The position numbers and the translations under genes are program-made. A stretch of DNA of 23,383 nt. Source: Myxococcota bacterium. Lineage in GTDB: Bacteria > Myxococcota_C > UBA6777. The stretch is taken from NCBI GenBank assembly GCA_023150835.1, contig JAKLKB010000110.1, positions 1-23,383 of the forward strand. The letters run 5' to 3'. This document shows positions 1 to 21,299 of this stretch, piece after piece. Each line of letters opens with the position of its first letter. The stretch's first letter is position 1. Under the pieces are notes generated by a model. That model did no database searches. It had not been told where the DNA came from and saw nothing but the letters and a program-made list of their open reading frames with translations.

Positions 1-103
1 CTGCCCAACCGCTGAAGTCAGCCCCCTGTGGCTGCCCAACCGCTGAAGTCAGCCCCCTGTGGCTGCCCAACCGCTGAAGTCAGCCCCCTGTGGCTGCCCA
101 ACC
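1..103. repeat. 31-bp tandem repeat, three perfect units plus a partial fourth, cut by the left edge
   Basis: Units at 1-31, 32-62 and 63-93 are identical; each starts CTGCCCAACCGCTGAAG and ends CCCCCTGTGG. The fourth (94-103) keeps only the first ten bases. The unit is not a multiple of three, so it is not a coding repeat, and no unique spacers separate the copies, so it is not CRISPR. Each unit contains the inverted repeat GCTGA-AG-TCAGC. The array probably continues to the left of the window. Confidence 0.97.
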
Positions 104-7419: not shown

Positions 7420-7781
7420 GCGCTCCACTCCCTTTCTTCCGAAACCACGCCCAAAAACCACGCCCTTCCAAAACCGAACGCCTCGCATTCTTCCCGAAAA
7501 CAACGCCACAGCGCAATGCCCCCTTGTCTACACCTTCTGCTCGCGGCATCCTCCCGCCCCACAAACGCCACCACAACGGCGTTCCGTTGGTTTTTTCTGC
7601 CCCAAAGGATCGCACCTTGAGCAAACGCAATACACATCCCAAAAAACCACCCCACCCCAAGATCCCTCCCTCCCCAAACTCCCGCCTTCACACCCAAAAA
7701 CCACCCCACCCCAAAGCTCGCCCGCCTACACCTCCCGCGCAAACCTCCTCTCTCCACACCGAAAACCCTTCTCGGCCCTCC
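7420..7781. promoter_or_regulatory. Divergent intergenic region between symporter and DUF2254-like gene
   Basis: 362 bases with no convincing gene; the reading frames across it are proline-rich and low in complexity. It must carry the promoters for the minus-strand symporter operon and for the plus-strand membrane-protein gene. The plus strand is extremely C-rich and holds a pair of direct repeats (listed separately). I saw no clear -35/-10 pair. Confidence 0.5.
7637..7716. repeat. Pair of about 22-bp direct repeats in the divergent intergenic region
   Basis: Two nearly identical stretches share the core AAAAACCACCCCACCCCAA (about 7639-7659 and 7696-7716), each preceded by ACAYCC. They are spaced about 57 bases apart, centre to centre. 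The first copy has one extra A. They lie 65-145 bases upstream of the plus-strand ATG at 7782. Confidence 0.7.
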
Positions 7782-9431
7782 ATGCCCAGCTTCCCAGCAC
7801 ATCTCAGCCCTGATATCCCCAACCTCTCCCGCCCTGCTTCGGGGATGTACCGCGCCGAGATCCTCCCCACCATCGAACAACCCACCACCACACCCCTCCA
7901 AGCCCAACCCCTCCACTTCCGCACGATCACCGCCATCATCGTCGGCTCGCTCCTTGTTTGGCTCTCCTTGCTCTGGCCCTACACGCAACCCCTCTGGCCT
8001 CTCCCCCAAACTCCCGAAGCCACCCTCAACTTCCTCGGCAGCGCACACCGCGCCCTCGGCGTCTTGCTCGCCTCCACCCTCACCCTCACCGCTATCGCTA
8101 TCCCCCTCACCGCCAACAATTACACCCCCAAACTCATCTCCCTTTTTCTTAAAAACCACCTCAATCAAGCGATGTTTGCTCTCTTTACTTTCGCCAACGT
8201 CTTTACCCTCTTTGCGATCGTCTGGTCGGGAACCGCCCGCCCTCCCCTCTGGCCCCTCGCCCTCACCGGCTTTTTTACCACCGTCAGCTTTCTCTTGATC
8301 ATCCCCTACGCTTTTTACGTCTTCCGCGACCTCCAACCTGAGATGATCATCTGCAACATCGGGCGCGGCATCATCCAAGATCTGTCCCGCGTCCCTTCTC
8401 TCCAAGACCCTTCACACATCTCCTACATCCGCCACCGCATCATCCAAGATCTCAAGTACCTCTCCAACATCACCCTGCGCTCCGTCGAGCGCCATGACCG
8501 CGACACCGCCTCCTTTAGCATCGACGCCCTCCGCTGCATCCTCGACCATTATTTCAAACTCAAAGACACCATGCCCACTCCTTGGTTTGAAGTCCAACGT
8601 AGCGACTTTCTCGCTCACTCAGGTGAACTCCGACGCCAATTCCAAGAAAATCGTACCTTCCTCGAAGGCGAAGTCATGGAAGAATTCGCCATGATCCTCG
8701 CTGGCTCCTTTGGCAAACTCCACGATATCGTCCGTATGCTCAGCGAAACCATGAGCTACATCGGTATGCAAGCACAAAGGCACAACCTCCCCCGCGTCCT
8801 CGAAACCACTTCCCTCTACTTCAACACCTACCTGCGCGCCGCCATCTCTCTACGCCACCCCAACGCCATCTATATGCTCGTCTTCCACTACCGCAAACTC
8901 GCCGAAGCCCTCATGCTCGTTAACCCCGAACGCACCGTCAAGATCGCCTTCTATCTCGATTACTACGGACACCAAGCCGTCCGCTCCGGCATGGTCTTCG
9001 TCGCCAACCTCATCGCCTACGATCTCGCCGACCTCACCGCACTCGCCTACCAACGCCAAGCCTCCTGCCGAAAAGAACTTTTCCAGCACTTCCTTCAATT
9101 CGATAACGAAGACCAGATGCGCCGCCTTCCCGGTGTGATCAAAAGCCACATCAAGCTCGCAACCACCCTCTATCCTCTCGAAGCTCTCGAAGAAGTCGAC
9201 GCCATCTGCCTCGCCCTTCAAAAAGTCCCCCACGACCTGCTCTCCGATGCCTTCCAACAAATCGACGGCGTACAACACAGCACCTACTGGGAAGTGACGG
9301 ACCGCCGCAAGCACAATGACTTCATCGAACCCGCTTTCCGCCCCTACTTCGACGCCCTCCGCAAACGCCTCCACGCCTCTCCCTCCACCCCTCCCGCCGC
9401 GATCCCCCACAACCCCCACACGATCCAATAA
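7782..9431 (+). CDS. DUF2254-like predicted membrane protein
   Basis: 549 residues from ATG 7782. Four membrane helices are visible (about 48-68, 89-111, 129-149, 158-181), then about 365 soluble, helix-rich residues with no motif I recognise. The segment from the end of helix 2 into helix 3 (LTANNYTPKLISLFLKNH, then Gln-Ala and a Phe-rich helix) resembles DUF2254 proteins, where a Ser/Ala-rich helix is followed by an sQ(Y/F)SPRLL-type motif. The function of that family is unknown. The start is uncertain: neither ATG 7782 nor ATG 7845 has a clear ribosome binding site. Upstream codons are low-complexity and proline-rich, so the longer frame from 7524 is unlikely. It is a single gene, divergent from the symporter operon, and its stop is immediately followed by a dispersed intergenic repeat. 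Confidence 0.8.
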   Translation: MPSFPAHLSPDIPNLSRPASGMYRAEILPTIEQPTTTPLQAQPLHFRTITAIIVGSLLVWLSLLWPYTQPLWPLPQTPEATLNFLGSAHRALGVLLASTLTLTAIAIPLTANNYTPKLISLFLKNHLNQAMFALFTFANVFTLFAIVWSGTARPPLWPLALTGFFTTVSFLLIIPYAFYVFRDLQPEMIICNIGRGIIQDLSRVPSLQDPSHISYIRHRIIQDLKYLSNITLRSVERHDRDTASFSIDALRCILDHYFKLKDTMPTPWFEVQRSDFLAHSGELRRQFQENRTFLEGEVMEEFAMILAGSFGKLHDIVRMLSETMSYIGMQAQRHNLPRVLETTSLYFNTYLRAAISLRHPNAIYMLVFHYRKLAEALMLVNPERTVKIAFYLDYYGHQAVRSGMVFVANLIAYDLADLTALAYQRQASCRKELFQHFLQFDNEDQMRRLPGVIKSHIKLATTLYPLEALEEVDAICLALQKVPHDLLSDAFQQIDGVQHSTYWEVTDRRKHNDFIEPAFRPYFDALRKRLHASPSTPPAAIPHNPHTIQ

Positions 9432-9558
9432 GTTTGGTGGGGTTCCACCCCACACCCCGCCATAGACAGTCGCCCCTTGACCCCGTATTGGCGAAACGAT
9501 CATCGTTTTCTACACAAACAACTCTCTCGCTTGAACAGGCACGAACACGGGGTTTTTT
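9432..9558 (-). repeat. Dispersed intergenic repeat, copy A
   Basis: About 127 bp, the reverse complement of the family orientation used here. It starts at the base after the DUF2254-like stop codon. The hairpin GTGGGGT-TCC-ACCCCAC lies at 9437-9453, the core complement of CCAATACGGGGTCAAGGGGC at 9472-9491, and the far end CACGGGGTTTTTT at 9546-9558. It aligns end to end with copies B (14477-14604) and C (15590-15716). Confidence 0.9.
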
Positions 9559-11350: not shown

Positions 11351-13045
11351 ATGCAGCACACCAAACGGCACGCCCTCGCGTGGAGATATCTCGCCCTTCT
11401 CTTCGCATCTTCGGCATTCCTCTCCCTTCCCAATGAACCCTCTCAAGCCAACCAGACACCGCCCTCCTCTCTTGAGGCGATCATGGAACGCCTCTATTCA
11501 GGCCGCTTTTGGATCGGACCCAACGGAGAACCCCTTGTCACCGTCGGGATCATGGACAACCAAGACAAGATCGAGTTTTCCTGCAAACACGGCTGTCGCG
11601 CCCGCCTCTACCGCCGCAACGAGCCTCCCCAAGAAACAGGACTTGAAGCCTATCACTCCTACACCATCCGACCTTTGCGCGCTCGACCTGCTTGGCTTCG
11701 CCATTGGCTCGTCGCCTTTGCCACTCCCTACGACGATACGGCCCGTTTCAACGCTCTCGAAAAACAATGGACGCAACGAGGCTTTGGCATCCACCCGCTG
11801 ATCACAGGCGGCGTCTTTGCCCTCCAAGGCCACCTCTTTGATACACGCCAACGCCTCGGTAGCCTCGCCGTCTTTGCCAAGCGCGAACACGCCACACAAC
11901 GCGCCACGCAGCTTGAAGACCAACTTCACCTGCCGATCCGTCTTCACGAAGAGATCGCTCGACGCCCACAGATCCGAATGTTGCTGCATGGCGGCGGACG
12001 CCTCGAAGCCGACGACCTGATCGAGATCCATCCACGACGCGGAACCATCCGCGTGGAGCGTGTCGAATTTGGCCGTGGCGACCGCTGGCATCGCTTCGTC
12101 CCCCGCCAATTCCTCGGTCCCCTCTGGTTCACCGCCGACCGACACGGCAAACTCGCTCTCGTCCAAAAGATATCCCTTGATGCTTTCTTGCGCGGTGTCT
12201 TACGCGCCGAGATGCCACCTAGCGCACCTCTCGAAGCCCTCAAAGCGCAAGCCGTCTGCGCTCGCAACGAAGTCCTCGCCAAGATCGCAACCCGTCACCG
12301 CGCCGATCCCTTCCTCTTTTGCGCACACACCCACTGCCAAGTCTACACAGGGAACCAAGAAAGCGACACCCGCATCCTCCGCGCCATCCAAAGCACACGC
12401 GGCCTTGTCCTCACCCTCCCCAACGGCCAACTCTCCGACGCGCCCTTTAGCGCCGTAAGCGGCGGACACACCGAACACAACGAGTTCGTCTGGTCGAATC
12501 TACCGCACCCCGCCCTCCGAGGAAAGCTCGATCTGCGCCAGCCTTCCAGCCTTTTTGAACATGGCATCGCTCCCTTCAATCTCCAACGCTGGCTGCTTGA
12601 ACCCCCAGACGCTTACTGCCACGGAAAAACCCCCGCCATCCGCAAAAAATTTCGATGGATCCGCACTTTTTCCCCAGAACAACTCGACAAACTCGTCCAC
12701 CAACGTTATCCCGTCGGCCACATCACCGACCTCATCCCCGAAAAGCGCGGCATCAGCGGTCGGGTCTATGCTCTCCGCATCGTCGGCTCACAACGCACAC
12801 TCCGCCTACACGGTGAACTCAAGATCCGACGCCTCCTCGGAAACCTATCCAGTAGCCTGTTTCTCGTCCAAAAACACACCGGCTCCAACGGTCAGCCCAC
12901 CTCATGGAAACTCATCGGCGGCGGATGGGGACACGGTGTCGGCCTCTGTCAGTACGGTGCCATCGGGCGCGCCAACGACGGACAATCCTTCCGACAGATC
13001 CTCCAACATTACTTCACCCACACCCGCCTTCTCAAAGTCTACTAA
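11351..13045 (+). CDS. Exported SpoIID/LytB-domain protein (putative peptidoglycan glycan-strand lyase)
   Basis: 564 residues. The N-terminus (MQHTKRHALAWRYLALLFA, ending near SQA at 33) looks like a Sec signal peptide, so the protein should act in the periplasm. Residues 120-195 may form a SPOR-like small domain (ARFNALEKQWTQRGF and LAVFAKREHA), but this is weak. The SpoIID domain covers about 205-564: SLDAFLRGVLRAEMPP with E287 at the catalytic glutamate position, LEALKAQAVCARNEVL (294-309), FSAVSGGHTEHN (366-377) and GWGHGVGLCQYGAIG (525-539). SpoIID of Bacillus cleaves glycan strands lacking stem peptides; homologues occur in many non-sporulating bacteria. A CAHTHC motif (324-329) is notable and could bind metal. 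It follows the TetR gene by three bases and overlaps the GNAT gene tail to tail by four. AAGGA lies 11 bases before the ATG. Confidence 0.93.
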   Translation: MQHTKRHALAWRYLALLFASSAFLSLPNEPSQANQTPPSSLEAIMERLYSGRFWIGPNGEPLVTVGIMDNQDKIEFSCKHGCRARLYRRNEPPQETGLEAYHSYTIRPLRARPAWLRHWLVAFATPYDDTARFNALEKQWTQRGFGIHPLITGGVFALQGHLFDTRQRLGSLAVFAKREHATQRATQLEDQLHLPIRLHEEIARRPQIRMLLHGGGRLEADDLIEIHPRRGTIRVERVEFGRGDRWHRFVPRQFLGPLWFTADRHGKLALVQKISLDAFLRGVLRAEMPPSAPLEALKAQAVCARNEVLAKIATRHRADPFLFCAHTHCQVYTGNQESDTRILRAIQSTRGLVLTLPNGQLSDAPFSAVSGGHTEHNEFVWSNLPHPALRGKLDLRQPSSLFEHGIAPFNLQRWLLEPPDAYCHGKTPAIRKKFRWIRTFSPEQLDKLVHQRYPVGHITDLIPEKRGISGRVYALRIVGSQRTLRLHGELKIRRLLGNLSSSLFLVQKHTGSNGQPTSWKLIGGGWGHGVGLCQYGAIGRANDGQSFRQILQHYFTHTRLLKVY

Positions 13046-14424
13046 ATGTAGCTCAAACCATACACCGGCCTCGCAAAAGGCAACAACCGCTTGACCTCTT
13101 CCCAACGCCCCCACGCACCCGCACCCTCAAATACCGGCAAAGGCAAGCGTTCCACACCGTCCACATAACCAAATGCCGGCTCACCAAACAACAGCCGCGC
13201 CAACGTCCCACGCCCTTGCCAACGCAGCCTCCCATCCCCCCATACCATCGAAAAGATATCCCCCTCTTCTTCCAAACGCACCGTCGCTGCGTCCACTCCA
13301 ACCGCTTCTCGAAACGCTCGTTGTATCCGCTCTGTCAAACCTTCCCACGCCAGTACACAGATCACACCTTCTCCTTCTTTTCCTTCTCCCCTCACACCTT
13401 GCTCTCGCAACCACCGCAAGATCTGCCTTTCATGCCAAGGCACCGACCAACGCAGCGGAAAACGGCACAGCTCCCGACGCCCCACCTCCGCCAAACCCAC
13501 CAACACACCCGCCCGATCTCCCGCCCATTCGATCACCTCGGTGTACGTAGAACGCTCCCACAACACCAACGATGCCACAACTTGCTCCCCCGCACACACC
13601 GAATACGCCCGATGCACCGCTTCCCGCATCCAAGGCACGATCTCTCCCCCCAACACCACTCGCCACTCTGCCTCGCTCCGCCCCCAACGCACGCTCTCCT
13701 GCGCTGCGATCTCCATCCATCGCCCCTGATCCTCCGCAACATAACCGCGCAATCTTCTTTCCGCTCCCTGCTCACCCTTTCCAACCAAAAGCTCAACACC
13801 CCTAATCCCCCGCCCATCCGAGCTTTCCACTACCCCCCCAATCTCCCGTCCTTCCGAGCCTTCCACTACCCCCCCAATCCCCCGCCCGTCCGAGCTTTCC
13901 ACTACCCCCCCAATCCCCCGACCATCCGAGCTTTCCACTACATCCCCAATCCCCCGTCTATCCGGGCCTTTCACAGATCCCTCTTCCATGACGCGACGTG
14001 CCGATAGCATCGACTTCTCCAACACAACGCGCTCGATACTTGCGCAGCGAACACCGCCCTGCCGTGCGTACAATCCCCGATCACCCGATATCACAAACAA
14101 ATCGACGCCCTCTTTTCGAGCGCCCTCCATCGCTGCCAACAACAAGCGCGTCCCCACTCCTCCCCCGCGCTGCGATTCTTCCGTACACACCGCCCCGATC
14201 CGCCCAACACGCCACGCCATACGCGGTGTCTCCCATGTATCGGGCAAGTACCCGACATGACCGACCACTTCCCCTGCGCTTTCCTCGATCCACAAGTGCG
14301 AGGCGTTCTCTTCACACAAAAAATGCGGAAAACACCGCTCCATCCGCCCACCTTGTGGACGAAAACACCGATTCAACAAGCCAAACAACCTCTCCCAATC
14401 ACCTACCACAGGATGCCGCATCAT
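13042..14424 (-). CDS. GNAT-family N-acetyltransferase, Eis-like architecture
   Basis: 460 residues. The N-terminal GNAT domain (about 1-135) has the acetyl-CoA loop in RIGAVCTEESQRGGGVGTRL (75-94, with QRGGGVG at 85-91), followed by the FVISGDRGLYARQGG segment common in this group. Five 12-residue repeats of the type VVESSDGRGIGG (about 150-210) form an insert. The rest (about 225-460) looks like a second degenerate GNAT-like part plus a C-terminal sterol-carrier-like domain, ending LARLLFGEP and LLPFARPVYGLSYI, as in Eis-like acetyltransferases that modify amines of antibiotics or proteins. The substrate is unknown. Start ATG 14424 has GAGG ten bases upstream; the frame runs open to 14880, but that part passes through a dispersed repeat and the next gene. 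The stop overlaps the SpoIID stop by four bases. Confidence 0.88.
   Translation of the reverse strand: MMRHPVVGDWERLFGLLNRCFRPQGGRMERCFPHFLCEENASHLWIEESAGEVVGHVGYLPDTWETPRMAWRVGRIGAVCTEESQRGGGVGTRLLLAAMEGARKEGVDLFVISGDRGLYARQGGVRCASIERVVLEKSMLSARRVMEEGSVKGPDRRGIGDVVESSDGRGIGGVVESSDGRGIGGVVEGSEGREIGGVVESSDGRGIRGVELLVGKGEQGAERRLRGYVAEDQGRWMEIAAQESVRWGRSEAEWRVVLGGEIVPWMREAVHRAYSVCAGEQVVASLVLWERSTYTEVIEWAGDRAGVLVGLAEVGRRELCRFPLRWSVPWHERQILRWLREQGVRGEGKEGEGVICVLAWEGLTERIQRAFREAVGVDAATVRLEEEGDIFSMVWGDGRLRWQGRGTLARLLFGEPAFGYVDGVERLPLPVFEGAGAWGRWEEVKRLLPFARPVYGLSYI
13804..13983. repeat. 36-bp in-frame tandem repeat in the GNAT gene, five units
   Basis: Units start at 13804, 13840, 13876, 13912 and 13948. 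The middle units differ at a few positions and the last is the most diverged. On the minus strand each codes for 12 residues of the form VVESSDGRGIGG, with Ser/Gly and Gly/Arg variants. The unit length keeps the frame, so copy number can vary without disrupting the protein. Confidence 0.95.
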
Positions 14425-14476: not shown

Positions 14477-14604
14477 AGAAACCCCCGTGTTCGCTTCGCT
14501 TGAAGCGACAGAGTTGTTTGTCTGAAAAACGCCTGCTCGCCTCGCCAATACGGGGTCAAGGGGCGACAGTCCCTTGCGGGGCGTGGGGTGGAACCCCAAA
14601 AAAC
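14477..14604 (+). repeat. Dispersed intergenic repeat, copy B
   Basis: About 128 bp between the GNAT start and the phytanoyl-CoA dioxygenase-family stop. In order: AAACCCCCGTGTTCG, a 7-bp hairpin TCGCTTC-GCTT-GAAGCGA (about 14491-14508), the core CCAATACGGGGTCAAGGGGC at 14545-14564, and the end hairpin TGGGGT-GGA-ACCCCA at 14584-14598 followed by an A-run. The core is identical in copies A and C. Confidence 0.92.
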
Positions 14605-14650
14605 AGACAACCCAGACGTCCGCTCCCAAGACTCAAAGCGAGCGACGGAG

Positions 14651-15442
14651 CTACGCGTAAAGAAACAGATAACGCAACGAGTCCGGGACGCGCTGCAATT
14701 CTTCGGGAGAGATCTCAAGGGCGTGTTGTTGGAAATAATTGACGCAATCGCGGAACCATTGGCGGGCGTAATAGGAATAGAGGACAGGCCGAGGTACAGA
14801 GGAGCGGTTGGCGGTCCCTGCGTGCCAGAGGCGGTAATCCATGAGCAGAGCGTCACCGACTTCGACGACGGGGAGTTCACAGCGGCAAAGTGCTTGGACT
14901 TCTTTGCGAGGAACCGCGTGACTACCCGGCCAAACTGCGGTTGTTCCGTGAAGATCGTTCATCTCAATCAGGGGAGAGATCATCAGGATAGCAAAACAAG
15001 GGAGATGAAGATCGAAGCGATCTTCGCCGAACAGCGGGGGGTGATCGGCATGAACGCCTTGATCGAGTGAGCCGGGCAAGGAGACGACCGAGCCAAACCC
15101 CCCAAGGATGGCGTCTGTTTCGGTGAACAACTGGATCAGTGGCAACAAGAAGGGGTTGGCGTAGATCTCAGGATCGTTGAAAGCCCCTGCCACTTCGATC
15201 GTCACCATCCGACGGCGGTTTCCAACTTCCAAAGCATCGCCGCGCTCTTCTTCGTAGAGATAATCTGCATATTTTTCGAGATAAAGCGTATGCAAGCGTT
15301 CGAGCTTTTCGCGGTTGTACGCTCCCTTGACCAACACCGCACCTGAGGCTCGAAATCCTTCATAAAGACTGCGAAACTCTCGCAGCCACATCCCGCGTTT
15401 GCGCTCTTCTTCGGTCAACGTCAACACCATCAGTTCCGCCAT
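14651..15442 (-). CDS. Phytanoyl-CoA dioxygenase (PhyH) family Fe(II)/2-oxoglutarate oxygenase
   Basis: 263 residues, cytoplasmic, no signal peptide. The family uses Fe(II), O2 and 2-oxoglutarate to hydroxylate varied small molecules, including lipids, ectoine and secondary metabolites. The iron triad is visible: H131 and D133 in VHADHPP and H207 in LWHAGTANRS; R218 in the following VPRPVLYSYYAR is the expected 2-oxoglutarate-binding arginine. DLHGTTAVWPGSH (163-175) is also typical. The length is normal. AAGGAG stands eight bases before the ATG. The gene stands alone: it starts 613 bases from the deacetylase stop and is followed by dispersed repeat B. A 37-bp tandem repeat lies 30-100 bases upstream of its start. 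The substrate cannot be inferred from the neighbours. Confidence 0.91.
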   Translation of the reverse strand: MAELMVLTLTEEERKRGMWLREFRSLYEGFRASGAVLVKGAYNREKLERLHTLYLEKYADYLYEEERGDALEVGNRRRMVTIEVAGAFNDPEIYANPFLLPLIQLFTETDAILGGFGSVVSLPGSLDQGVHADHPPLFGEDRFDLHLPCFAILMISPLIEMNDLHGTTAVWPGSHAVPRKEVQALCRCELPVVEVGDALLMDYRLWHAGTANRSSVPRPVLYSYYARQWFRDCVNYFQQHALEISPEELQRVPDSLRYLFLYA

Positions 15443-15471
15443 CTTCGTTGCTCCTTTTGTGATGCTCGTTT

Positions 15472-15545
15472 GCTAGGTGCTGTGCGCTAGGGTCGCATCT
15501 CCGTCTCGGCTGGGTGCTGTGCCCTAGCGCCGCCTCTCCATCTCA
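15472..15545. repeat. 37-bp tandem duplication upstream of the PhyH-family gene
   Basis: 15472-15508 and 15509-15545 are adjacent 37-bp units that match at 30 of 37 positions. Both contain GGTGCTGTG, then CTAG, then CTCC and TCTC at fixed spacing. They lie 30-103 bases upstream of the minus-strand ATG, where promoter or regulator sites are expected. Confidence 0.85.
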
Positions 15546-15589
15546 GATCGACAGGGCTTTTTCTTCCAAGATTCGGCGCGGCTTGTAGC

Positions 15590-15716
15590 CCAAACCCCCG
15601 TGTTTGCGGCATCTCAAGCGACAGCGCTGTTGTTTTGAACTACGATGCTCTCTTCGCCAATACGGGGTCAAGGGGCGACAGTCTATGGCGGGGTGTGCGG
15701 TAAAACCCCATAGACG
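15590..15716 (+). repeat. Dispersed intergenic repeat, copy C
   Basis: About 127 bp. It begins AAACCCCCGTGTTTG, carries CTCAAGCGACAG and the core CCAATACGGGGTCAAGGGGC (15657-15676), and ends with GGTAAAACCCC. The core and its flanks (TCG before, GACAGTC after) match copy B exactly. The right end touches the 9-bp tandem array at 15722. Confidence 0.92.
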
Positions 15717-15721
15717 TTAGG

Positions 15722-15901
15722 TTTCCGCACTTTCCGTACATTCCGTACATTCCGTACATTCCGTACATTCCGTACTTTCCGTACTTTCCGTACTTTCCGT
15801 ACTTTCCGTGCTTTGCGTGCTTTGCGTGCTTTCCGTGCTTTCCGTGCTTTCCGTGCTTTCCGTGCTTTCGGTACTTTCCGTGCTTTCCGTGCTTTGCGAA
15901 G
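15722..15901. repeat. 9-bp minisatellite, 20 contiguous units
   Basis: 180 bases divide exactly into 20 units of the form (T/A)TTCCGT(A/G)C, with TTTGCGTGC and TTTCGGTAC variants. The variants are clustered: ATTCCGTAC units are together at the left, TTTCCGTAC in the middle and TTTCCGTGC at the right, as expected from repeated local duplication. Both strands stay open in all frames through the array. Confidence 0.97.
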
Positions 15902-16014: not shown

Positions 16015-16038
16015 TATGGGGTAAAACCCCACAAAAAC
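16015..16038 (+). repeat. Fragment E of the dispersed repeat (end hairpin only)
   Basis: TATGGGGTAAAACCCCACA resembles the end of copy C (GGTAAAACCCCATA) and copies A and B (GGGGTGGAACCCC). Only the terminal hairpin GGGG-TAAAA-CCCC is recognisable; the core is missing. Confidence 0.5.
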
Positions 16039-20782: not shown

Positions 20783-21299
20783 CCGACCTCCCGATGCCAT
20801 CTCGATCATGCCTCATCCCAAACGTTGCGATCACCCACACGCACGATCCGCTCCTGCTCCGTCCCAAAAGCCAGCCTCGTGCATCGACGACCTTGGTTCC
20901 GCTTGTTTCAAAACACAAAGACTTTGCCACGTTTGCCGCTTTCACACAAATAGTCGTGGCGCGGTGGGCAAAAAAACCCGCGTTCGCGCCACCTCAAGCG
21001 ACAGAGCCGCCTACGCGAAAGACCTGTGCTCTCTTCGCCCCTCACGGGGTCAAGGGAGCCGCGCCCCACAAGGGAGTGCGGGGTGAAACCCCACCCAAAC
21101 CATCGAACTGCGTAAGTCCTACAAATAGAAAAGATCCTTTTCCACCACACTGCGTACATCAAACCTCACAAGCCTTCTTCGCGAATCGCTTGCAGCATCC
21201 GTTTTTACCACACCCGCTTGACCACGAACACGCTTGCGTACCGTTTGCCCTCAAACCATCCGCGTGTGTTCCTGTCTTTGACGACCTTGGAGGTTGATC
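20783..21299. promoter_or_regulatory. Divergent intergenic region between the PEGA and MG2 genes
   Basis: 517 bases with no supported gene. It must contain promoters for the minus-strand lipoprotein operon and the plus-strand MG2 gene. Its middle is occupied by dispersed repeat D (20971-21100). I found no convincing -35/-10 pair; frames across it are short or pass through the repeat. Confidence 0.5.
20971..21100 (+). repeat. Dispersed intergenic repeat, copy D (diverged)
   Basis: About 130 bp. It begins AAAAAACCCGCGTTCG, has CTCAAGCGACAGAG (20993-21006) and CTCTCTTCGCC like copy C, a partial core ACGGGGTCAAGGG (21044-21056), and the end hairpin GGGGT-GAA-ACCCC followed by ACCCAAAC, as in copy A. 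It is more diverged than A to C but keeps the same order and spacing. Confidence 0.82.

Follow-up and report, generated by a model that had tools for sequence, protein, structure and literature searches.

An intergenic repeat with IS701-type ends keeps a folded interior as the ends erode in a Myxococcota genus

Introduction

How did a repeat of about 128 bp come to lie four times, each time between genes, in 23 kb of a Myxococcota genome, and why does it persist there? The stretch analyzed here, which we call the window, comprises 23,383 nt and corresponds to contig C50 of a genome (G000) of 7.56 Mb in 239 contigs. A preliminary description of the window offered a MITE-like or REP-like mobile unit or a structured RNA/terminator module as candidates. 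It saw neither terminal inverted repeats (TIRs) nor target-site duplications (TSDs), and suggested a genome search for more copies, a test for compensatory changes, and a comparison of orthologous filled and empty sites. Bacterial MITEs are usually viewed as passive debris. We followed these suggestions in the window's own genome and in a sister genome of the same genus, the Myxococcota MAG KLAP109 (G001).

Results

Copies in the window and beyond

The four full-length copies, with a shared order of motifs, are present in the sequence where they had been described, and the 20-nt core is indeed identical in three of them (A, B, and C), with CCCCTCACGGGGTCAAGGGAGC in copy D. The end hairpin, whose arms had been said to persist, occurs in all four copies, but one arm of copy C is mismatched (GCGGT). 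A shorter fragment is also present as described and consists of the end hairpin only.

Copy A, 14477..14604, plus strand: interior only, TIRs past recognition; same place in the sister genome
Copy B, 9432..9558, minus strand: interior and weak TIR remnants; truncated in the sister genome
Copy C, 15590..15716, plus strand: interior only; common to the sister genome; adjoins a 9-bp tandem repeat
Copy D interior, 20970-21099, plus strand: part of the whole element at 20951..21121
Copy D, complete 171-bp element with both TIRs, 20951..21121, plus strand: common to the sister genome
Copy D left TIR, 20951..20967, plus strand: TAGTCGTGGCGCGGTGG, a degenerate TAGGACTTACGCAGTTG
Copy D right TIR, 21105..21121, minus strand: GAACTGCGTAAGTCCTA
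Copy D putative 4-bp target duplication, left half, 20947..20950: CAAA, from the sequence and the sister alignment
Copy D putative 4-bp target duplication, right half, 21122..21125: CAAA, from the sequence and the sister alignment
End-hairpin fragment, 16015..16038, plus strand: ATGGGGTAAAACCCCAC..., below the length callable by profile search

Approximately 20 head-to-tail 9-bp units (TTTCCGTAC/TTTCCGTGC; window 15722-15900) start at the end of copy C, and the sister-genome alignment stops at this array. The window also contains 36-bp tandem repeats inside the ORF at 12904-14007 (13796-13975) and 9-bp repeats (CCGATGACG) inside a protein kinase gene (2014-2121).

In the genome search, the core matched 349 places in the window's own genome when up to one mismatch was allowed, and a control read backward matched none. 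In the 1.13 Mb of this genome that we read directly, there were 126 near-full copies and ~48 fragments, and the KLAP109 sister genome carries the family just as densely. The TIRs described below occur at 147 places in the own genome, at 150 in the sister, and at none in the genomes of three other family members, where a covariance model found at most weak partial matches, in G003 only. The repeat had no Rfam match at gathering score, and a literature search for the TIR and core sequences returned nothing relevant. At two loci of the own genome (L005 and L017), the end hairpin alone is tandemly multiplied beside some copies.

TIRs, target duplications, and empty sites

First, comparison of the flanks of many copies revealed 17-bp TIRs, TAGGACTTACGCAGTTG ... 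CAACTGCGTAAGTCCTA, just outside the 128-bp interior. The unit first described is the conserved interior, and the true unit, TIRs included, is ~170 bp long (median of TIR-bounded elements, 170 bp). Second, an exact direct duplication of 5 or 6 bp flanked 33 of 76 two-ended elements, compared to 0.9% expected from mismatched flanks, and lengths of 3, 4, or 7 and more were never seen among these 76. The absence of TIRs and TSDs from the preliminary description was therefore an error; copy D is itself bounded by TIRs and by CAAA/CAAA. Third, empty sites were found by comparing syntenic stretches of the own and sister genomes (~170 kb; 91-94% identical around the window). The site at L037:15968-16189 is filled in the own genome, where CCAGA is duplicated, and has a single CCAGA counterpart in the sister. 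Sites at L085:9010 and L090:5460 are filled in the own genome only, and the site at L144:15300 is filled in the sister only, without a clear duplication. These results show cut-and-paste insertion that was recently active in the genus. Hypermutation during transposition need not be invoked, as one recent insertion is 92% identical to a copy at another place. With TIRs, TSDs, filled and empty sites, short length, high copy number, and no transposase, the family shows the hallmarks of a MITE, and the MITE-like reading is borne out.

A second MITE family, 116 bp long, has the same TIRs, 5-6-bp TSDs, and an internal hairpin, GGGGCGGTTCGCGAACCGCCCC (L034:19379-19494, L047:10544-10659, and L058:19861-19976, among others). 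Because the two non-autonomous families share their ends, one enzyme probably moved both. The smallest MITE of the set, at 72 bp, lies in a viral contig (L260:6509-6580); its TIRs are perfect, and AACAAC flanks it as a 6-bp duplication. A third repeat family, palindromic (GTAGGGGCAGCCCCCTGTGGCTGCCC ... ACGGGCGGATTTCGTAT), is also common (L126:1200-1470; L085:3285-3395), and 31-bp tandem units at window 1-103 resemble it.

The probable mobilizing transposase

When viral contigs were scanned for the 17-bp end, two (L256 and L258) had the TIR immediately next to the C-terminus of a transposase. The L256 protein matched the NCBIfam IS701 model NF049921 with 405 bits, and the L258 C-terminus is similar. 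Moreover, a 220-bp element of the sister genome (L281:1435-1654) carries, between the same TIRs, ~50 aa of an IS701 N-terminus that is 50% identical to L256. Because the identical TIR adjoins IS701 transposases and bounds this relic, we assign the repeat to the non-autonomous IS701-type MITEs, of ~170 bp, with its mobility established as far as sequence allows.

No intact IS701-type transposase was found in the own or sister assembly, both of them fragmented drafts in which absence carries little weight, and long TIR pairs at other loci encode no transposase save the L281 relic. The DDE_Tnp_1 genes of the own genome were rejected as mobilizers, as none is TIR-flanked; the one close to a TIR, in L126, is a degenerate insertion that adjoins a repeat copy. 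Separately, a tnpB-like gene (TNB domain) of another viral contig has the same 17-bp TIR as its 3' end (L257:9909-9925).

Loss of ends and retention of the interior

Among the 164 copies that lie between called genes, end scores are at background or close to it in 117. The conserved interior columns match the consensus at 93% in these 117 copies versus 95% in copies with good ends, among copies that were detected via the interior, those with a wholly decayed interior being uncounted. Where the right end has fallen to background (76 copies), a left end matching at least 11/17 positions is still present in 18 (~2% expected). This continuum of partly eroded ends disfavors a separate family that never had TIRs. 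TIR pairs without the interior are rare, the 116-bp family aside. Thus, the TIRs of older copies fade to background, and what persists is the interior, made up of a long imperfect hairpin and two G-rich hairpins.

Orthologous copies in the own and sister genomes fell into two groups. For most, the orthologue is the best match. In the five closest pairs, conserved columns differ by 4.1% and variable columns by 15.8% (p=5e-6), and the 45 bp alongside orthologous copies differ by ~12% (summed over pairs). At 4 of 12 shared sites, by contrast, the copies are no more alike than random family members, although their flanks are 91-95% identical, and one orthologue ranks only 112th among matches. Copies so unlike between flanks that align indicate that one copy was replaced en bloc, as by gene conversion. 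As the substitutions of all shared copies can be fitted by conversion plus drift without selection, the case for selection is carried mainly by the unreplaced set and by placement.

Fold of the interior

RNAalifold returned almost no structure from the raw alignment, and pairs were therefore found through covariation and named by hand. On the strand of the preliminary description, a long stem is formed by CCGTGTT and AAYACGG around GCGA/TCGC and inner pairs; CAAGGG/CCCTTG and then TGGGGY/RCCCCA follow. In 70 copies, 86.9% of cells pair. The test for compensatory changes gave 98 double-change cells, compared to 47.6±7.1 in shuffled data (0/500), and every slid control was lower. The best single pairs were A-T 45/G-C 20 in the middle helix and T-A 37/C-G 31 closing the end hairpin. 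A frequent variant, CTATGG in place of CCCTTG, disrupts the middle hairpin, which argues that this hairpin is not essential.

The strongest coupling lies outside the helices. It links the base before the GGGGT that precedes the end hairpin to the central base of the hairpin loop. Among 201 copies, T occurs with A in 82 of ~84 cases, and C occurs with G 75 times and with A 17 times. The G-statistic of this pair is 156, versus 36 or less for any neighboring position, and the lack of linkage to neighbors argues against haplotype linkage as the cause.

Placement relative to genes

The copies had been described as lying between genes, and called genes contain none of 201 sampled copy centers, at a coding fraction of 82% (home-made gene calls). 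Centers fall within 150 bp of a gene 3' end in 87 of 164 cases, compared to 62.8±4.3 for random positions in the same gaps, and are depleted within 150 bp of 5' ends (44 of 164; 60±4.9 expected). Within 150 bp of 3' ends, the strand that reads ACGGGG and then a T-run is sense to the gene 68 times and antisense 26 times (p=1.7e-5); the counts are 47 versus 16 in the own genome (p=0.0001) and 21 versus 10 in the sister (p=0.07). Young copies show the same trend, 9 versus 5, numbers too small to part insertion preference from selection. Window copies A and B, close behind stop codons with the T-run strand sense, match this trend. The T-run strand of copy A (minus) is sense to the gene at 14651-15442 (PhyH family), 47 bp past its stop, and copy B begins directly after the stop of the gene at 7524-9431 (plus strand, DUF2254).

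A scan for compact terminators did not flag the copies, as the loop of the hairpin that precedes the T-run is long and branched. Nor is the length of the T-run better preserved in 3' copies with the terminator orientation than in the remaining copies. Covariation, placement, and orientation at gene 3' ends support the structured RNA/terminator reading of the preliminary description for the interior, with termination itself as a predicted action. The survival of the core, mostly behind genes and in a terminator-like direction, suggests use by the cell.

Discussion

We propose a four-step history, which as a whole we judge rather probable. In the first two steps, a ~170-bp unit with 17-bp TIRs inserted by cut and paste, very probably mobilized in trans by an IS701-family transposase. 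The TIRs, TSDs, and empty sites for the insertion and the transposase evidence, which supports the second step well, make us highly confident of this part. In the third step, TIRs eroded in older copies and the folded interior remained. In the fourth, the interior may be retained because it gives the upstream gene a 3'-end structure in its RNA. Read on the strand opposite that of the preliminary description, this RNA would form two small hairpins and then a long hairpin closed by CCCCGT/ACGGGG, with the T-run directly after, and such a module would resemble a terminator or protect 3' ends. Decay asymmetry, covariation, and strand bias point to this last step, to which we give roughly even chances; mRNA 3'-end protection or Rho-linked attenuation would also fit the data. 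A broader reading is tentative: a transposon-borne RNA module, delivered by IS701, may have been domesticated genome-wide, its core kept by selection at the 3' ends of hundreds of genes to serve as a non-canonical terminator or to protect those ends, with a fold that needs the loop-to-linker pair and with copies periodically rewritten by gene conversion.

A purely selfish IS701 MITE, unlikely in our view but to be taken seriously, would have an interior with no host function, overwritten by non-allelic gene conversion, and would sit at 3' ends as the least harmful places. The wholesale replacements at shared sites between well-matched flanks speak for this alternative, and 3'-end enrichment is typical for tolerated repeats (PMC3049150). 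Conversion, however, leaves unexplained the strand bias at 3' ends, the strict coupling of a single pair with unlinked neighbors, and the slow conserved columns of unreplaced orthologues, and conversion at ~80% identity over 130 bp would be unusual.

The paired changes could also stem from hairpin-templated mutation (quasi-palindrome correction) instead of selection on the fold. The arms of the small hairpins do change jointly, as in the T-A/C-G pair that closes the loop, but the tightest coupling joins a lone pair, the base 5' of GCGGGG and a loop base, which belongs to no arm, and we consider this origin improbable. A regulatory or stand-alone RNA from the strand of the preliminary description is more doubtful still. 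Wobble asymmetry between the strands is mixed, the loop pair favoring the T-run strand and inner long-stem pairs the other; several pairs alternate G-U/G-C on the earlier strand (e.g., 104 GT / 77 GC), on which copy A folds better than shuffles (z -2.84). Behind most genes, this RNA would nevertheless run antisense to the gene before it, copies are depleted at gene 5' ends, the loop pair is canonical with wobble on the other strand only, and Rfam holds no match.

Finally, we reject as very improbable the REP-like reading, a doubled GGGGT tag plus hairpin moved by a RAYT (Y1 HUH) transposase: the inner half does read CGGGGT-hairpin-GCGGGGT-hairpin, with similar doublets in G027 (33 matches, 0 control), G052, and G003, but the own genome has just two partial, borderline Y1_Tnp matches (22.9 and 23.8 bits), with no linkage of RAYT genes to the element ends, the sister and G027 have none, and the TIRs and TSDs are of DDE type. 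The C-G loop combination recurs in the doublets of G027, an unrelated genome in which the search pattern fixed the C. Arrays of G-rich hairpins, each after GGGGT, that strikingly resemble the inner half of the element, down to a C ahead of GGGGT and a G in the loop, were seen in G027 (L170, L174, L177, L180, L183, L186, L189, and L095), G052 (L171), and G003 (L094, L098, and L102).

The repeat has a 17-bp TIR identical to that of IS701-family IS (NF049921), and the sister genome holds a transposase relic between the same TIRs; unlike these IS, the repeat has no transposase, an unrelated interior, and a far higher copy number. We know of no description of interior retention after end loss for the Correia elements of Neisseria or the Nezha elements of cyanobacteria. 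Both are IS-related MITEs (PMC10969869) that have MITE anatomy in common with the present family and differ from it in TIRs and hosts. SPRITE, BOX, and RUP of Streptococcus pneumoniae are small intergenic repeats with structured transcripts; SPRITE, which is AT-rich with 30 copies and AAAA/TTTT ends, crowds gene 3' ends, its co-option as terminators was proposed, and an empty site was not found (PMC3049150). The present repeat is like SPRITE in its 3'-end crowding, here with the T-run strand sense. In contrast to SPRITE, it has G+C-rich arms, hundreds of copies, 17-bp TIRs, empty sites, TIR loss with core retention, and a measured strand bias, and in place of the compact hairpin directly before the U-run of a SPRITE-like intrinsic terminator it has a long branched one. 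REP/REPIN elements with RAYT (PMC2817692, PMC3116915) are likewise short tagged hairpins, intergenic and in many copies, but RAYT is absent here and the ends are DDE-type.

MITEs and SPRITE-like terminator repeats were thus already known, and what is new is that IS701 ends, strand bias, en bloc replacement, and a folded core that is kept occur together. The one loop pair with strict coupling offers an unusual clue to the structure. With hundreds of copies in two related genomes, the part of a MITE that is retained becomes measurable, the ends vanishing and the folded core staying, and it becomes possible to test directly whether a mobile element was recruited across a genome to form the 3' ends of transcripts.
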